From Saksenaea vasiformis B4078 (taxonomy: Eukaryota > Mucoromycota > Mucoromycetes > Mucorales > Saksenaeaceae), in assembly GCA_000697055.1 (NCBI GenBank), contig JNDT01001705.1:23869-87868 (forward strand): DNA of 64,000 nt, read 5' to 3'. The position numbers and the translations under genes are program-made. Of the stretch, positions 38,432-47,022 are shown piece after piece. The notes beneath the pieces were generated by a model that saw only the letters and a program-made list of their open reading frames with translations, was not told where the DNA came from and made no database searches. How positions within the stretch are numbered: the first letter of the stretch is position 1; every line of letters begins with the position of its first letter.

Positions 38432-40272
38432 CTAACAAGAAATGCTTACCCCAAATCGATCTGGCATCACGATGGGGGCCACTAACGACCACCCGTAAAT
38501 GATATGGCATAGCCATCCTGACACAATCTTGACCCACACGGCCGCGTAACTCTGGCCTACACGGACCAGCTCGCCATTGCTCTGGACAGTGCTATTATCT
38601 GTCGTCACCGTATTCCTTCAAGTCATATAAACGATTTAGCTCTAAGAAAATGACTACGCATCCACATACCAATTTGTGAGCACCATTGCAACGTACATAG
38701 CAGCAATAGCAAATACGAAATGGAAGAATGAATAGCTGTAAACTGATCCGTAGCGTTCATCATCACGCTCGTCAACTCCTTCCATATCATCCTCATCTTC
38801 ATCATCCAAAGCAGAGCGCGGCAATCCACTGTTTTATCATGAATATTTTTGATCTGATGAAATGAAGACTTACCCGCTTTCCACGGCCGCAAGCAAATGC
38901 CGACGACGAGAATCATCAGTGCTCATGCGTTGCACTCCAGCTTCCACTTGATTGGGCATCAAAGGTACTGCACTATCCGTCTCCAAAGGTTCGTAGTGAT
39001 GTCGACTTTTATGATTGATGAATGCGCCATCCTGAGTAGCCGCACGACTAGTAGAGTAAGCAACTGCCAGGAAAGTAAAGATTGCGCCAAGAACAATGGA
39101 TACGGTCTGAGGTCCATGTGATCGACGGAGAGGGTTACATTCTTTGTCATTTGGTTCATTGGCAACAGCGGACATGACAAGATAGGTACAATAGATAACA
39201 ACTATCGAGGCTTGCGATAGACCCGATCTGCTGTTCGCTTCCTGAACGGAGGGTGAAATGCATAGCAACGTTACGAGAACGCACAGGATCAGGTTAAACG
39301 TGACAAAGAACTGATTAAGCGAGCAGCCGTTCGTAGCGAAGAATGCGTACATAATTCCCGTCATGGCGATAGCTCCAGAAAACATAAGGATGGTACCTCC
39401 GATAAGGATGTTCTTCCAAGTATTTGATTCATACGTCTCGTAATTTTCCATACATCGTTCTGTCCAGCTGTGCGCAAAATCGACGAGCAATACAAGGCCA
39501 AAAAGGATGAAGATAGCCGCACCGATTAATGCAAAGTAATTTCCCCATACCATGAAGAAACTGCTTGGAATGAAAAAGGAAACCACCAAGAGGATAATCC
39601 ATCCAAGGATTTTGGGACCCCACCATCTAACATAATGCTATTAACTCTTGCTTCCTTCCTATCATCGTCAGTTACCCGTTTTGTATAGCTGCCCATTTTG
39701 TTCGACTATCATGAACACCCAGCAGCATGACACCTAGAATAGCATGGAATAATACAAGGGCAAAACAAACGCGGTGGACCTGCATAGACCAGAAAGAGGC
39801 TCGTCATCATCGTAGTTACACTAGGTCTCGACTTTACCGCAATAATGCCGTAGCAAGTTCCCTCCGCACATTCCAGTTTCATGTAATCCAATGTTAGATG
39901 TTGAAGTTGTTTAATAGCCCAATTGGATAACATGAGCCAAGCGAACTAACACATGGATCAGTCATTCACTTCATTGGTCAAATTTCTTGGCAACTCACGA
40001 CAGAGTTTAACAAAAATATAATCTAGTCCATGTCATAATCAGTCATGCATAATTAACAGTGAGGGAGAGCCCTTACTGCAAATCCTATTCTTGTGGCAAT
40101 GGAGTTGTTGCAATTGCAGCTATAAGGATCAGGTTGGTAAGCATGTACAATATCGGAGGAAGTGGGACCTTTTGAAAGCGAGCGAACATGCTGCTGCAGA
40201 GAAACAGCTAGCAATCCAAGTTCCAACCGAACTCAAAGCAGGTAATGCAATGCAACTAAGAGCTGCACCCAT
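38432..40272 (-). CDS. TMS1: SERINC/TMS1 family multipass membrane protein
   Basis: Eight exons: 40272-40169, 40119-40077, 40022-39999, 39945-39838, 39779-39676, 39626-38874, 38828-38670 and 38615-38432; 492 aa. The N terminus MGAALSC-type, the [15 protein letters not shown] segment, [17 protein letters not shown], a long multipass middle exon, the acidic loop [20 protein letters not shown] before YSFFHFVFA, and [10 protein letters not shown] near the end are all family landmarks. About ten membrane helices. SERINC proteins were proposed to aid serine incorporation into lipids and are now seen as lipid scramblase-like; the yeast role is unclear. The last few codons after DRFG are uncertain: the frame reads on for a few residues to a stop, but a terminal intron is possible. 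One exon (39999-40022) is only 24 nt. Confidence 0.92.
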
Positions 40273-42141
40273 GCTGGTATAAGAGGAAGTTTAAAAGAGG
40301 AAGTGAGTACGGACAAGGTGTTTCGGGAGAGCCAAAAGTCGGCAAATAGAAGATCCGGTGCGCAGAGCCAGCTTTTTTAAGCGATCTTCCCAAACGAACA
40401 GTTTTCAGTTGAATTCGTTGCGACAACCTCTCATTAAGAGAACATCTCATTTATAGCTATACAAACAGAACATTCCTATGAACAGAATAAGAAAGTGTTT
40501 CAATCATTGTCATTCAGTGGTGCAGAACGGTGGGAACATCGGCGAACGGCTCATTCTTACCTTACTGCCATGAGGAAATAACTTCTGCATATCAACAGCA
40601 GCTATACATGGCGGTTCAGATACCGCGCTGATCGAGGTTGGGTCTGTGCACGTCAGCACATAGTGTATCTTTGAACTTTGGCTATGGGTCGCGACGTTCT
40701 TTTGCGTTCTCTGTCTGTCGTATCTCGCAACATGAACAGACTTACGATGTAAAAACGCATTGATCACGAACAAATAAGTCGGAGCATAAAGATGCTCACC
40801 AGTCCGTGTTGAACTACTAGAATCTCTGATTACACACCTCCCGCTGAAACACTTTTCTTTTCTTCGTCATCCTCATTAGTAGAAGAAATGGGGTTCCGTT
40901 CTGTATCATGGTGTCCTCACCTAGACCTATTAGATCCGCATAAGGAGTAGTACTGATGTGGATACTATGGGAAGCGTTGCTGGTACCATAAGCAGCAATG
41001 AATAGAATTGCGACTCCAGGAACCCGTCATATTACAGTAGTGTGAAGTTTGTCTTTGATATCAGGTAGGGCGACCAGTTTTTGTTTTGATCAAACGGTTC
41101 TTTATACTTCTTAAACACGAACAATACGTCCAGCCTTCCAGCTCGAATAACGTTCCTACCAAATGTGTCAGAAACAGAAGCCTTCATCCCGATTTACCAA
41201 AATAAGGTTGTATCTGTATATGTGCCGATCAACCGTACGATAACTAGTCTTCGACCTATCGAACAGCTCAAAGTACATCTTCGGACTTGGTAAGTATTCG
41301 GCTGTTGCTTAAACCTGCCTCAAACCGAAAAGTGTTTGAACCTCTGCTGCGTTTGGTGGCCGTAGTTCGTTCCTTCCATTTGACATAGCCCAAGAACGGG
41401 TGTTTTGTCCAGCTGATTAATAAAATTGGGCTTTCGGATTTACCCACCGGGAAGACCAACTTGTCGCCTATTTTTTCTGCATCAAGGGAAACGGTCGTGC
41501 ACAGAATATAGAAAACTCTTGGTACGGCCGAAAGTTGAGACGGAGCCGACTTGACATCAGTCTAAGTAGAGTTTTTCCACTTGAGATTGAGACGGTCTTT
41601 TACTTTCTTCTGGATGGATAGAAACGCAGATTGAAACAGTCCATTCTCTTTCGTTGGATGATTTGAATCATGAAAAACGACCGAACTTAGGTATCATTAG
41701 AGACTGATTTGACTTATCACCGTGATTTTCCATTAATCCATTGGTTCATGAGCAAAATTTAAGGAGAAATGATAAAAATACGAGAGTCTGCTTCGACTCT
41801 TCCGTCGCCACAGTGTCGGTTATTCCAAGTTCAATTCTAGAGAGAATAGGCCGTGGCGCGATAAAAAGAAGTCGAAGAAGATAGTAAGAAGATATCACGA
41901 CGAATCCAATGCAAAATTTCCTATTGCGCTACCACTAGGGAAAAATTGGTCGCTGATTGACCACTTTCTCATATTGTATACCATACTTCAGTTTGACCAC
42001 TATTTATCCGGTTTCTAGCCAGTAACATTAATTCGTGCGTATGATAGATTGTTTCATAGGTCACGTCTCTAAGTTGTCACTGAGAGACTATATAAGCAGT
42101 GGTTTCGAGAACACACTACTCATTCTTTCCAGTTACTTGTA
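40273..42141. other. Intergenic left flank of the Fanzor locus
   Basis: No gene is supported. A minus-strand frame at 40510-40773 looks weakly protein-like but has no recognised motif. The left boundary of any transposon carrying the Fanzor gene should lie here, but I found no convincing inverted repeat shared with the right flank. Confidence 0.4.
42089..42096 (+). promoter_or_regulatory. TATA box of the Fanzor gene
   Basis: TATATAAG, 46 nt before the first ATG (42142). Position and lack of intervening ATG fit a fungal core promoter. Inferred from motif and spacing. Confidence 0.45.
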
Positions 42142-45100
42142 ATGTCACCAAAGCGTAATAAAGGGTAAACCATCCAAGTTTCTCTGCGTACGACTTCTCA
42201 ATCTCTCCCATAGAAAGCAACGTCAGACAGATCCATCTCCGTCTTTTGCTTCAGGACACCGTCATGCCGCGAAAACTCACCACGAGGTGTTCATCGAGAA
42301 AAAGGAGGCTAAGCAACGTGAAGAAGACGAGATACCAGGTTGTTCAGACATTTATGAAGGCTTGCAGTTAAAAGTTATTCATCATTACCAATTTAGTCCT
42401 GTGTATATGATGCAATCGGCAAGGACATCAAGATTCAAGTAGTGTAAACTGTCCTTTGAACCGTCAGCACAATTTAGGAGCCATAGACAGTAAGGATTTG
42501 CTAATTAATAATGGTCACTTTGTGTCTAACACGAAGGATTAGACCAGTTTCATCGTCAGCTCAAAAGCTTAAGTGTCGAAAAACGGATGAGCAGAAAGCC
42601 GCTGAACGAGCAAAAAGGGCTCAGGGAAAGAACGAAAAGGTCGCAAATCCGAACGTAAAACCATGCGCCTATTGCACAGAGCAGAACGTTTACAATGCAG
42701 ATGAAAACGCTCACGGGTCAAGAAGAGTTAAGACATGCTTATTTCATATCCCTTCTCAGCGAGAGTGGCTTTCCACTGAATTGGGAGATACAAGTGTCAG
42801 ATGATGCCTTTTTTAGTCAGATGTTTTTCTATGCATGCATCCAGCTCGTCTTGGATCAACGCTTTTCGTCGCCTAATCCGTTGCTCCCCGCCGAAAGGAT
42901 GCAGGAGGTGTTTAACGACTTCATAACGAAGTTTCCTCTGTGTCGGGTGCACACCAATCTCAAATAAAACCATGCGTTCGCAAGTCTAGCCTACCAATCG
43001 CTAACAGCATTTGTCAACTCAATAATGGAGACTTTTCCGCAGCGGGCTTGCAAGTTCCTGATAGTTGAACTCAAAGAAAGACTGGTAGGGTGCATGTATA
43101 CAGATTTTCGATATCTAATATCACGAAATACATGGTTAGAAGCTCACGGATTCTCATGCACGAACGCTAGCATCGTACATATATGATCGAATCGCAGGAG
43201 ATAACAATCGTGCTTGGCCTACCTCTGTGGCAGAAAACAATGAGGTGCAGGGTGTCGTGGAAGAACTGGAAGGGATGGACTTTGGTGCGCGGCCAATATC
43301 TGTTGAAACACTCTCTGCTTAACCTGCACAGTACCTACCGGCGCTGAAACGTTTTCTACAAACCATTGAGGAACATAATGACCGACAGGAAGAACAGGCT
43401 GCAGAGGTACAACAGGAAGCAACCCTATCCTGGGTCCGGATGATTACTCAAGATTTGGATGAGTACCAAATGCTTGGTCGCTGCCGACGGAATCGTTTGG
43501 CGAAAGAAGTGAAAGGTGGTGCTAATGGCAATACCTACAACCTCGAAGGTTTCGGCTTATCAGACTTTTCGCAGATGTTCCTACGCGATACAATCGCCAA
43601 CACTTGGGAAGAGATCCAGAATTCGCGTCGATACTTGGAAATTGCGGACGAAGAGAGAGAAACGATTCTGCATACATGTTTCGGGCCTGAAACGCATACA
43701 TTTGTCAAAAAGCGGCGGCTTTTCTCCCTGCTGCCTTAGTACAGCTTCACTCGTCAGTATGTTACCGTAGATGTGCAGACTCTCAAATCACTATTACGTC
43801 GCAGCGGTGGCAGAAATTACGCTACAGGTCCTGTTGATTCCTCGAACACCCGCCAGAACTTTGATATGACCTTTGATCTGCGCAAAGTGTTGAGGAGGTA
43901 TAGCGTATAATGCTCCACATCTGATTTATAACTTGAGTCATTTTATAGTCGCGAGCTAGAGGACAACCTACGCTTTTCCAGTATACGGTGCGCACAGACG
44001 GCTTCGGGATCGATTTCATTTTTGATCAAGCAAAGCGTGAGAGCGACGAGTTGCCCGATCTTTCATTGTGGATTTTGATGAGTCCGACCTTGAAGATACA
44101 TTTCATCTGTGGGAGTGTTGATCCGGGAATCAACAACGTGTATGTGGCAGGTGACGGCCATGCGAGTCGGTCAAGCGGAGGACGTGGATCAACAAAGACA
44201 TCAGGTTCGCAAGATGACAACTGATGAATACTACACGCGTGCAGGCTTGACGAAGACCTCATCCGAAAGACTCCAACTGAAAAGACAACATACAGTCGGC
44301 GAAGAGGCTAACAATATTCAACACATTGAAGCACATCTACCGACAGCAAAAACGGCAAACATTGAAACGTTCAAAGAACATCTACGAGCCCTATTGCCAG
44401 CTTTACCCATTATTTTCGACTTCTATAACGAACAATTTACAAGTAAAGTGTTCCGGAATTATATGGGGAAACAAAAGAGCGGATGCAGAGCCTGTAAACA
44501 TTCTCATTACCGGCGGGAAAAAGTACATCGGCTTTCCACAAAGAGGAAGAAACGCTCGCTCCGTCGATCAGACATCCAACCAAGACGGAGAAGGAAGAAG
44601 AAGAGAAGACCTGAACAAAGGCCTATGCAGCAGGCTCAACCAAGTGAGCCAACCAGGTAATGCATTCTTTACTTGCCGAAATAAATAGATAACACATTGC
44701 AGGCTTCGGAAGTGGAGACCATCTCGTTTACATAGCGACAACAATATACCATTGGTAGCCTTCGGAGGGGTCCGTCTCGGATCCAGCATACGTGGAGTTC
44801 GCAGTGGATTTGTGGACCGTTGTCGGAGGCTTTTGAAGGCTGCTGAGCGCGAAATCCGAGTCGTTGTCGTCGAAATCGACGAATTTTTTACATCGAAGGT
44901 AAGAAAAGGGACACGCTATTACATGTAAAGTGGACTGTATTAACGTTCTTTTTTATGTAGGTCTGCTCGCACTGTCATGCAAGAGCCTTAGGGAACATGA
45001 ACCTGACGGAGGGAAAGCTACATGGCGTAGTGCATTGTACAAATTGCGGTGCAAATCACGGGACAAGCAGGCGAATTTGGCAACGAGACAATAATGCTGC

Positions 45101-45185
45101 CAGAAACATCCACTACATAGCAGAAGAATGTTTTCGAGGACAACCAAGACCCGGCCTGTTTCTCCCACCAGAGGTCGCTAGTTAA
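42142..45185 (+). pseudogene. Fanzor (eukaryotic TnpB/RuvC RNA-guided nuclease) gene, apparently decayed
   Basis: The RuvC core is readable: RuvC-I in GSVDPGINNVY (Asp codon 44120-44122), RuvC-II in EIDEFFTSK (44870-44899), a zinc ribbon CSHC...CTNC, and RuvC-III in WQRDNNAARNI in the intact last exon 44961-45185. Upstream are a basic N terminus (exons 42142-42164, 42214-42438, from 42543), helical regions of the Fanzor recognition-lobe type, FQYTVRTDGFGIDFIF before RuvC-I, and DEYYTRAGL after it. A lysine/arginine-rich loop precedes VAFGGVRLG. Introns at 43912-43955 (approx.), 44659-44702 (approx.) and 44900-44960 splice in phase. Damage: in-frame TAA at 42965-42967, TAA at 43320-43322, TAG at 43737-43739, with coding similarity continuing in the same frame. 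Frame shifts occur near 44150-44190 and twice in 44470-44545. Some stops might be hidden in short introns, so inactivity is likely but unproven. Fanzors are transposon-borne and use a nearby omega-RNA guide. Confidence 0.85.
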
Positions 45186-46132
45186 CATCTCCTCATAACA
45201 AAAATGAGTAGAGACATACAGTGTAAGTGATGTACAACAGCTTATGTCCAAAGATCTCGAACGCTAACTTCATCCAATTCCTTTTTACTTTTTATCCAAA
45301 ATCTGTTCTCTCATCTGCCTAAATTCCATTTCTCTTTCGTACGAAAACTTTGGCGCGTTGTTCCAAAATTCAAGTGAATAAACTGTGGAACATTTGATAC
45401 TATTTGCGTGCGGCGTCAGCACAAACCGTACACTACGTCTTTTGTTCCCACGCAAACGTTATCTGCCTGGCCTAGAACGTGTGCTACATTGTTGGCTGGG
45501 CGTGTACTACGCCCGCTGACGACCATACAAGTTTAGGAGATGTCTCAGGATGAGTGGTTTGGCTACCCTGTTCTGCTATGAGTTCATCCCTGATTATTTG
45601 CATAAGAAAAACCTTAAGTAACTGGGCATAGGTCCATGTGGTGCTTGTGGTATTATTTTCCCAGAAAGTAAAAATTGCTTTTTTGAATGACTCTTCTTTT
45701 TCCCTTCTTTACCGCTCTGTTGATAGGGGGTGACATATTGATATATGCTACAGTGCTTTACTATCACTACGATTTCAACAGAGCCTATTCATGTATTTCA
45801 CTTGCTGCTTTTGTTTTCGAACAGAAGAGCTACCGTGTACAACAATCTAACTTCTGCGTTGACATGATATTGACTTGAGATAACAAATAACCTTGGCTTT
45901 CAAAAAATCCTACGGACAAGGACACCGTGAGATTTAACGGCCAATAGGATCGTTCCAGCTAAAGACGAATGCGCCAGTTAACGATTTCCATATATGGGAG
46001 ACTTCAGTGATGTGGCGACGAACTGTCCCCGTACTATTATATTGGTTGAAACTCAACTACTTCCTATCCCTTTTCTTCTTGAACTTACTGTCGTAGATCT
46101 TTACGTTGAACAAGTTATTGTGTTAGTTCGTC
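45186..46132. other. Right flank of Fanzor locus and promoter of KDEL receptor gene
   Basis: No gene is supported. A small hairpin (GGGCG at 45498-45502 pairing with CGCCC at 45510-45514) is noted. A frame at 45687-45878 starts with a hydrophobic stretch but lacks splice continuity to the downstream gene. The right boundary of a Fanzor-carrying element should lie here. Confidence 0.4.
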
Positions 46133-47022
46133 ATGAATATATTTCGGCTTGTTGCGGATTTGATGCACTTAGCATCTATCTTTATTCTACTGTTAAAAAT
46201 CAGAAAAACGCGATCGTGTGTGGGTACGTTGACATGTCGCTCTACATCCGAAAAACACGAATGCTGATTAAAGCCTTTAGGCATATCATTCAAGTCGCAG
46301 TTGTTATACTCCGTTGTATACATTACGCGTTATCTAGATGTATTCACCTCATGGGTGTCGCTCTACAATACTGCTATGAAAATATTCTTCTCTGCGTCGT
46401 CGTTGTATATCTTATATTTGATGAAAGCCAAGTTTAAGGCTACATATGACCCAAGCATGGACACCTTCCGCATTGAATATCTGTTGGGTTCAGCCTCCGT
46501 GATAGCATTACTGACGACATACAAGTACACGATACTAGAGGTAAATGGAGAAGAGGACACCGTAGAAAGGAAAGTGTCAGTCTTACTCTGAACTACGTAC
46601 AGGTGCTGTGGACTTTTTCGATCTGGCTAGAGTCTGTGGCCATCCTTCCTCAATTGTTCATGCTGCAGAGAACAGGCGAGGCAGAAACAATCACGACTCA
46701 TTATTTGTTTGCATTGGGTGCTTACAGGGCACTGTACCTTTTCAACTGGATCTACCGCTATTACACTGAAGACCACGTTGATTGGGTCGCATGGATAGCT
46801 GGTATTTTGCAGACTGCCTTGTACAGTGATTTCTTCTACATCTACTACACCAGGTAAATAATTCGGCTTCTGAGAGGGATCAAGTCGAGTAACTTTTCTT
46901 CTGGTTGATAGAGTCTTGCGAGGAAGGAAATTCGAGCTACCAAAGTAAGTGGATAACATCAAAATATGTACAGTTTGTTGATGCATTGTGCTTTGACTTT
47001 TTTTTTCACTAGAATGGTTTAA
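46133..47022 (+). CDS. ERD2: ER lumen protein retaining receptor (KDEL/HDEL receptor)
   Basis: Five exons: 46133-46223, 46281-46540, 46603-46853, 46912-46944 and 47013-47022; 214 aa, the normal ERD2 length. Landmarks are MNIFRL at the start, [92 protein letters not shown], and a cytosolic tail ending [10 protein letters not shown]. Seven membrane helices. The protein binds escaped ER proteins by their C-terminal HDEL-type signal in the Golgi at low pH and returns them in COPI vesicles. The last exon contributes only Met-Val and the stop. It converges on the NSRP1-like gene, 156 bp away. Confidence 0.96.

Follow-up and report, generated by a model that had tools for sequence, protein, structure and literature searches.

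A decayed Fanzor, most likely Fanzor1, within a probable Tc1/mariner-like element, and its many relatives in the same genome

The stretch of DNA that we analysed (the window, 64,000 nucleotides in all) carries, on its plus strand, the remains of a Fanzor gene (Fanzors are eukaryotic proteins related to Cas12, the CRISPR enzyme). The remains lie between a Serinc gene to the left (38870-39637, minus strand, E 3.8e-88) and a KDEL-receptor gene to the right (about 46268-46857, plus strand, E 1.5e-27 and 2.9e-27), and the element that carries them is an ordinary intergenic insertion in this gap. The earlier note on this DNA had placed the locus at 42142-45185; the motifs do lie inside that span, but the element as a whole is probably wider, about 3.8 kb (41567-45387) as judged from its repeats. 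The nearest copy in the genome, C580:98979-100789 (the sister copy), is 92% identical over about 1.8 kb, and its similarity to the window starts only at 43565. The features are as follows.

41567-41595, plus strand: probable left terminal inverted repeat, TA followed by GAGTTTTTCCACTTGAGATTGAGACGG, matching the repeat at the right end of a paralogous Fanzor family (family A) better than anything else in 64 kb
42142-42164, plus strand: putative first exon with an ATG, about 45 bases 3' of TATATAAG (42089-42096), from sequence reading and not confirmed by paralogues
42505-42801, plus strand: N-terminal CxxC...HxxRxxxxC zinc-like region, by tblastn 32% identical over 82 amino acids to the paralogue L041 and 39% over 64 to the paralogue L042, with the frame lost near the 3' end
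42659-42967, plus strand: REC-like coding remnant, so labelled from its position only, closed by a premature TAA (42965-42967) and 51-56% identical over 43-47 amino acids to L041 and L042
42968-43084, plus strand: coding remnant with the frame unchanged past that stop, 50-54% identical over 28-36 amino acids to L041 and L042
43085-43139, plus strand: putative GT-AG intron, directly 3' of which the protein alignment picks up
43140-43739, plus strand: coding remnant interrupted by a premature TAA (43320-43322) and a premature TAG (43737-43739), from the frames and the alignment to paralogues
43740-43897, plus strand: YSFTRQYVTVDVQTLKSLLRR coding remnant, 41% identical to L041 and to L042
43898-43948, plus strand: GT-AG intron 3' of DLRKVL, found in the sister copy too, at a point where the frames of family A also break
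43949-44656, plus strand: exon with RuvC-I (DPG) and the linker helices TTDEYYTRAG...KTANIETF, from the frames, the sister copy and paralogues
44657-44702, plus strand: GT-AG intron, found in the sister copy too
44703-44898, plus strand: exon with RuvC-II and its shifted glutamate, matching PF07282 once joined to the following exon
44899-44960, plus strand: GT-AG intron of 62 bases at the FFTSK/VCSHC boundary, found in the sister copy, with an apparent intron at the same place in L042
44961-45185, plus strand: last exon with the C4 ribbon and RuvC-III, open to the stop codon, 92% identical in amino acids to the sister copy (74/74 residues)
45186-45371, plus strand: 3' non-coding stretch, by its position only the place of the omega RNA in live Fanzor elements
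45372-45387, minus strand: probable right terminal inverted repeat, degenerate, with TG in place of the TA of the sister copy, from the comparison of copy ends

As read from the frames, the motifs follow one another along the plus strand between 44114 and 45110 in the order that had been described for them: RuvC-I (SVDPGINNVY, 44114-44143, with the codon of the catalytic aspartate at 44120-44122), RuvC-II (EIDEFFTSK, 44872-44898), the C4 ribbon (VCSHC...HCTNC) and RuvC-III (WQRDNNAARNI, 45078-45110), the last two in a single open exon that is intact to its stop codon, as the earlier note had also held. Several introns had been claimed as well, and the three GT-AG introns at 43898-43948, 44657-44702 and 44899-44960 are all present in the sister copy; the one at 43085-43139 is putative, and the remaining N-terminal introns are guesses. 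An N-terminal basic region fared less well, part of it, the RRRRKKKRR stretch near 44590, lying out of frame with the paralogues. Both halves of the Fanzor fingerprint, as defined in the portion of PMC10711439 available to us, are found here, namely DPG in RuvC-I and a glutamate a few residues ahead of the ribbon. This shifted glutamate (44881-44883) is separated by six residues from the first ribbon cysteine, and it occupies the same column in six of the seven paralogue rows of our alignment A1, the exception (L015) being degenerate there. The window also agrees with the pattern D-X(125,275)-[TS][TS]-X-X-[C4 zinc finger]-X(5,50)-RD, given for Fanzor in the available part of PMC3627910, with about 240 codons from D to TS (intron removed, counted across the frame changes), the C4 finger, and 12 residues to RD.

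Profiles of the TnpB type point in the same direction. PF07282 (Pfam Cas12f1-like_TNB) scores over its cut-off against the last two exons joined over their intron (E 1e-8, 35.6 bits, cut-off 26.3) and has no match to the last exon by itself, while NCBIfam guided_TnpB gives E 4.1e-6 and 26.3 bits, far under its whole-protein cut-off of 100, as expected because the query is only a piece. Collinearity with paralogues takes in most of the gene and is for that reason stronger evidence than the motifs: all ten of ten window pieces are collinear with L041 (C484) and L042 (C376) at 32-56% identity (tblastn), including the N-terminal CxxC...HxxR...C region. Profile A1, made from the C-terminal part of the window Fanzor and paralogues of its own genome (8 rows), was compared with PDB sequences at E up to 10 and listed 36 of them, TnpBs and Cas12s among them. 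The Fanzor1 chains of S. punctatus (8gkh, E 2.3e-6), Parasitella (9cf0, 4.9e-5) and Guillardia (9cer, 0.0039) are matched, with several TnpB or Cas12 chains scoring equal to or above them; since the top scores belong to other TnpB-like chains, this search cannot separate Fanzor from TnpB. A profile of RuvC-I and the linker has five PDB matches, the best of them a weak one to the S. punctatus Fanzor (SpuFz1, E 0.01); the 852-residue read-through and the terminal repeats with TA would also fit Fanzor1. No PDB chain was found by phmmer with the window read-through, nothing was found in PDB by profile A2, and the 768-residue paralogue L028 has two PDB matches only, both at chance level. Two queries of a large protein database, which apparently holds few or no fungal proteins, gave no relative at E 0.001 among the 8000 candidates scored for each. 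The TNB match, the DPG with its shifted glutamate and the collinear paralogues support the assignment of the locus to Fanzor, and the Fanzor identity first proposed from the motifs is upheld, the Fanzor1 matches in PDB being in line with it.

The evidence for the ends of the element comes largely from family A, a second Fanzor family with five copies (L020, L022, L023, L024 and L026), which is about 32-38% like the window's family in aligned parts. All five copies have a common right end, ...GGAAAAACTGTA or nearly so, with unrelated DNA beyond it. When its reverse complement, TACAGTTTTTCCTTTTGAAATTTAGACGG, is compared with both strands of the 64-kb window, the top match is 41567-41595, upstream of the Fanzor and in left-end orientation, with a score of 38; the 4.3-kb stretch upstream, shuffled 500 times in two-base blocks, never reached it (best shuffle 35). 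On the right, the final bases are ...CAAGTGTATAAACTGTA in the sister copy and ...CAAGTGAATAAACTGTG in the window copy. The left end of the window copy and the right end of the sister copy start with TA and the right end of the window copy with TG, so that no target-site duplication is seen. In the genome, the left-type repeat pattern has 17 sites, one of which is the window left end, and the combined pattern has 20, against 0 for each reversed-pattern control; TA starts all 20 sites, but was required by the search pattern. Ten of the 20 are in right-end orientation and at most 1.5 kb downstream of a Fanzor match, where about 0.1 would be expected. The other ten include the window's own left end, with a site on C58 as another; those on C53 and C277 look by eye like right ends, adjoining a Fanzor remnant or family A 3' sequence, and those on C80, C112, C409, C422, C287 and C505 have a common left-type end of about 30-200 bases. 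No Fanzor was found beside the four of these left-type sites that were examined at length, and complete short elements at the extra left-type sites were rejected, no closing repeat being found in four of four. These results support inverted repeats as the boundaries of the element, with TA starting them in its relatives.

Other comparisons give a less clear signal. With the window's own right end as the query, the best upstream match is at 40398 (score 30, with shuffles reaching 32) and the left repeat at 41567 is not recovered, the two window ends matching each other poorly. The right end of the sister copy does match at 41567, with a score of 36 that the best of 100 shuffles ties, and an initial scan of the window for the pattern yielded 7 matches against 7.5 expected by chance, the proposed ends being its two best. 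No terminal repeat was found in the examined flanks of L041 and L042, the closest full-length relatives (best scores 19-29), and no left end of family A was found within the sequence examined of L022, L023 and L035 (the stretch upstream of L026). We consider the element ends probable rather than proven because of the own-end query, the chance-level scan, and the failure to find the repeat in the examined flanks of L041 and L042 or a left end for family A.

The element appears to contain no transposase, a conclusion supported by the lack of a Pfam match in seven of the seven short frames tried around the window Fanzor. The genome profile search places DDE_3 at no fewer than 157 places and DDE_1 at 34, and among the matches listed the nearest to any of the 20 repeat sites is 13.7 kb away. 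On C112 the reading frames reveal a Tc1-like fragment at a distance of 3.8 kb from the repeat site; an autonomous element with a Tc1 transposase was considered there and rejected, no closing repeat being found as far as C112:13100.

Ends of the CAGT type are typical of Tc1/mariner, and such an end is present here; the repeat sites also have TA on their outer side, and the upstream repeat is the best match in 64 kb. Against this, one may hold that the Fanzor element belongs to another superfamily or has ends other than those proposed; no transposase with the same repeat was found, the window's two ends match poorly, and the examined flanks of L041 and L042 are without the repeat. The published record can be read both ways. 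The available part of PMC3627910 (2013, Bao and Jurka) describes Fanzor1 in Tc/mariner elements, some of them without a transposase yet with mariner ends and TA sites, and it also describes Fanzor1 families in Rhizopus, Phycomyces and Mucor, with MuDR-like elements (ROr-4, PBl-3 and MCi-4) and unclassified ones (MCi-2 and MCi-5). We judge a different superfamily or different ends to be rather less likely than not, though more probable than any of the other alternatives.

The reading frame itself is broken. Three single stops occur in frame (42965-42967, 43320-43322 and 43737-43739). Compared with the paralogues, the frame also changes in the N-terminal region, to either side of RuvC-I and past the linker helices, and the only exons that stay open from end to end are the last two, 44703-44898 and 44961-45185. 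Where the window has the TAG at 43737-43739, a sense codon stands in the sister copy, and small indels between the two copies shift the frame, around RuvC-I among other places, the sister copy being itself broken at other places. In the 345 codons of five coding stretches, 23 first, 23 second and 29 third positions differ between the two copies, and their introns (139/152 bases identical) are about as similar as their exons (1356/1463 bases). This near-neutral pattern, with no clear excess at third positions, has the look of two dead copies; the last exon alone, with 2, 4 and 9 differences, is the only stretch that leans to third positions. From its sequence, the window Fanzor is a pseudogene, from which no full nuclease would be made, and the three stops and the frame changes are the grounds on which an intact gene is rejected. 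The earlier note, which had described an RNA-guided nuclease locus here, was right in kind and over-read in state, a working gene being unsupported.

One could still suppose that the Fanzor is intact and expressed, its apparent stops being removed by splicing or read through, given the open last two exons and the presence of all three catalytic motifs, but each stop is the only interruption of a frame that stays open before and after it and aligns to paralogues, one of them is a sense codon in the sister copy, RuvC-I is flanked by frame changes, and the codon pattern is near neutral; this supposition is very improbable. A domesticated Fanzor, kept by the host for another task, would fit the two ordinary host genes that flank the locus and the lean of the last exon, yet it is just as improbable, in view of the broken frame, the probable transposon end upstream, the sister copy elsewhere in the genome, which is broken too, and the lack of a clear third-position excess over the 345 codons. 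An unrelated zinc-ribbon protein or DDE transposase is refuted by the TNB match and the paralogue collinearity, with the profile matches to Fanzor1 chains also against it and nothing found in its favour.

The 3' stretch gives no fold signal: five of five right-end sequences fold no better than their shuffles (z 0.56 to 1.54), which lends no support to a structured guide RNA there. In family A, the columns identical in all five copies are 154/174 in the 3' non-coding part and 229/299 in the adjoining coding part (p 0.0015; columns 600-790 and 250-550, ranges picked after the data were seen), and this conservation would fit an RNA or transposition ends there. The comparison of the window with the sister copy shows the reverse, with 167/188 positions identical in the non-coding part and 210/225 in the last exon. 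Because there is no fold signal and conservation is lower in the 3' stretch than in the last exon, the idea that the window copy may still supply a guide RNA to live relatives has no support.

We therefore favour, with a probability of roughly 85%, a decayed Fanzor, most likely Fanzor1, in a probable Tc1/mariner-like element of about 3.8 kb in the Serinc/KDEL-receptor gap. By analogy with the family, a TA-targeting transposase acting in trans would move a live element of this kind, and RNA from the element's right end would guide the Fanzor of a live copy; together they may cut matching DNA, for example the empty site, so that the element would persist. The window copy has lost the ability to produce its nuclease.

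This copy is one of many in a genome of 38.7 Mb (666 contigs). PF07282 matches at least 137 genome places (150 of 388 candidates scored), the window locus being missing from these because its domain is split by an intron, and the 88-residue RuvC linker of the window matches at least 120 (150 of 154 scored), the window itself and the sister copy included, with 48 of the linker places near a TNB place. Merged at 3 kb or less on the same strand, with fragments and contig-end copies counted, the TNB and linker places amount to at least about 209 Fanzor-related loci. The genome search for intact paralogues that the earlier note had suggested returned an abundance of related loci, with none shown intact end to end among the relatives examined. 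After the sister copy, the nearest relatives of the window Fanzor (C206, C282, C633, C410, C291, C538, C484, C376 and others) have linkers 41-51% identical to its own. Long open frames cross all of the motifs in L041, with one apparent frame change, and L028 has a single 768-residue frame with DPR in place of DPG. Neither the transposon ends nor the genome-wide size of the family had figured in the earlier note. As for the host, an early-diverging fungus had been proposed. An expansion of CotH points to Mucoromycota, and the genome has 35 CotH matches, which are not fungus-specific since they also occur in 3 of 14 control genomes, together with six chitin synthase N-terminal matches, which occur in 0 of 14 and are consistent with the proposal; taken together, the two fit a Mucoromycota-like fungus.

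The closest likenesses in print are PUl-4 and SPu-1, Fanzor1-only Tc/mariner elements (PMC3627910; SpuFz1 in PMC10432273) which, in the portions of these papers available, resemble the window in having a Fanzor, inverted repeats, TA ends (putative for SPu-1 in PMC3627910), no transposase found, and many copies. The window copy differs from SPu-1, where a single reading frame occupies about 2.1 kb, in being longer, in being a pseudogene and in having several introns. S. punctatus is credited in the available part of PMC10432273 with 42 Fanzor loci, whether full or partial, besides 134 ghost elements. The Fanzor1 proteins of Rhizopus, Phycomyces and Mucor (PMC3627910) and PpFz1 of Parasitella (PMC11423790) have, as far as the available text goes, the same RuvC fingerprint and come from what we infer to be a similar fungus, and the ribbon profile matches PpFz1; compared by description, however, the elements of the first three are MuDR-like or unclassified (other-elements section of PMC3627910), in contrast to the probable Tc1/mariner-like build in the window. 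The TnpBs of IS200/IS605 and IS607 are like the window in their RuvC-ribbon-RuvC architecture and TNB domain, whereas the window has the DPG, the shifted glutamate, a long N-terminal part, introns and transposon ends of the eukaryotic type. A keyword search of the literature for Fanzor with Mucoromycota found nothing, and among the matches listed for Mutator-like or MULE elements with Fanzor none contained the word Fanzor.

Taken by itself, the window locus is a real but ordinary and inactive new copy of an already known Fanzor family. More tentatively, and short of an even chance, the genome may be an unusually rich Fanzor arena, in which the many related loci would include at least two divergent Fanzor1 families with a common TA-beginning repeat, and a Fanzor2-like gene that would lie tail to tail with a MULE transposase. 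On this reading the window family and family A would share this one repeat, so that one transposase would probably serve both in trans. The Fanzor2-like/MULE pair, if true, would represent the capture of a fungal Fanzor2 by an element of the Mutator type, the kind of intermediate proposed as ancestral to Fanzor1. The locus is useful as a pointer to a genome rich in relatives, some of which keep long frames open across the catalytic motifs, and with a repeat common to families. These relatives and their common repeat could help to test what role Fanzor plays for its carrier elements, a question described as open in the available part of PMC10432273.

A Fanzor2-like gene lies beside a MULE transposase in the genome of the same fungus (38.7 Mb, 666 contigs), at the following places, each given in the coordinates of its fetched stretch.

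L018 160-4474 (C531), Fanzor2-like gene and MULE transposase
L021 1-4408 (C599), Fanzor2-like gene and MULE transposase
L019 3454-5134 (C666), the same pair, from DNA similarity only

The two genes are arranged tail to tail. The Fanzor2-like gene matches TNB (PF07282) at 67.4 bits and HTH_OrfB at 22.5 bits against a cut-off of 21, and it carries the DPG and the shifted glutamate of the Fanzor RuvC fingerprint. The MULE domain exceeds its cut-off on both C531 and C599, with one stop inside the domain on each contig, while a single piece of L018 taken alone scores 20.0, below the cut-off of 27.6.

Other Fanzor sequences and element ends are found elsewhere in the genome.

L028 1896-4202 (C419), minus strand, single Fanzor-like open frame of 768 aa
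L038 (C53:3700-4050), family A Fanzor fragment, sequence judged by eye
L030, L031, L032, L033, L036 and L037 (C80, C422, C112, C409, C287 and C505, respectively), left-type terminal repeats

The 768-aa frame has a TNB match and reads DPR rather than DPG in RuvC-I; its 96-97% relative, L027, keeps DPG in a broken frame. In L038 the PGFTKKYATID region of the divergent family A Fanzor passes directly into the right-end stretch and repeat, and by eye this locus appears to be an internal deletion derivative of that family. The six left-type repeats are followed by a common sequence of up to ~200 bases. Neither a Fanzor nor a closing repeat was found in the four of these stretches fetched at length, and the loci may be what is left of shorter elements, or of unrelated ones, with the same ends. 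Domain matches also reveal a large stock of Tc1/mariner-type DDE_3 places (at least 157), several forming inverted pairs within one contig (e.g. C24, C53, C445, C599 and C662).

By DNA comparison, the Fanzor2-like and MULE sides are jointly present in three of nine matched contigs (C531, C599 and, counted from DNA similarity only, C666); C81 matches both sides weakly, and C208 carries the MULE side without the other. The C531 and C599 copies, both close to contig ends, are 97% identical. The pairing would be consistent with capture of a Fanzor2 by a eukaryotic transposon. PMC10711439 describes such captures in an alga and in molluscs.
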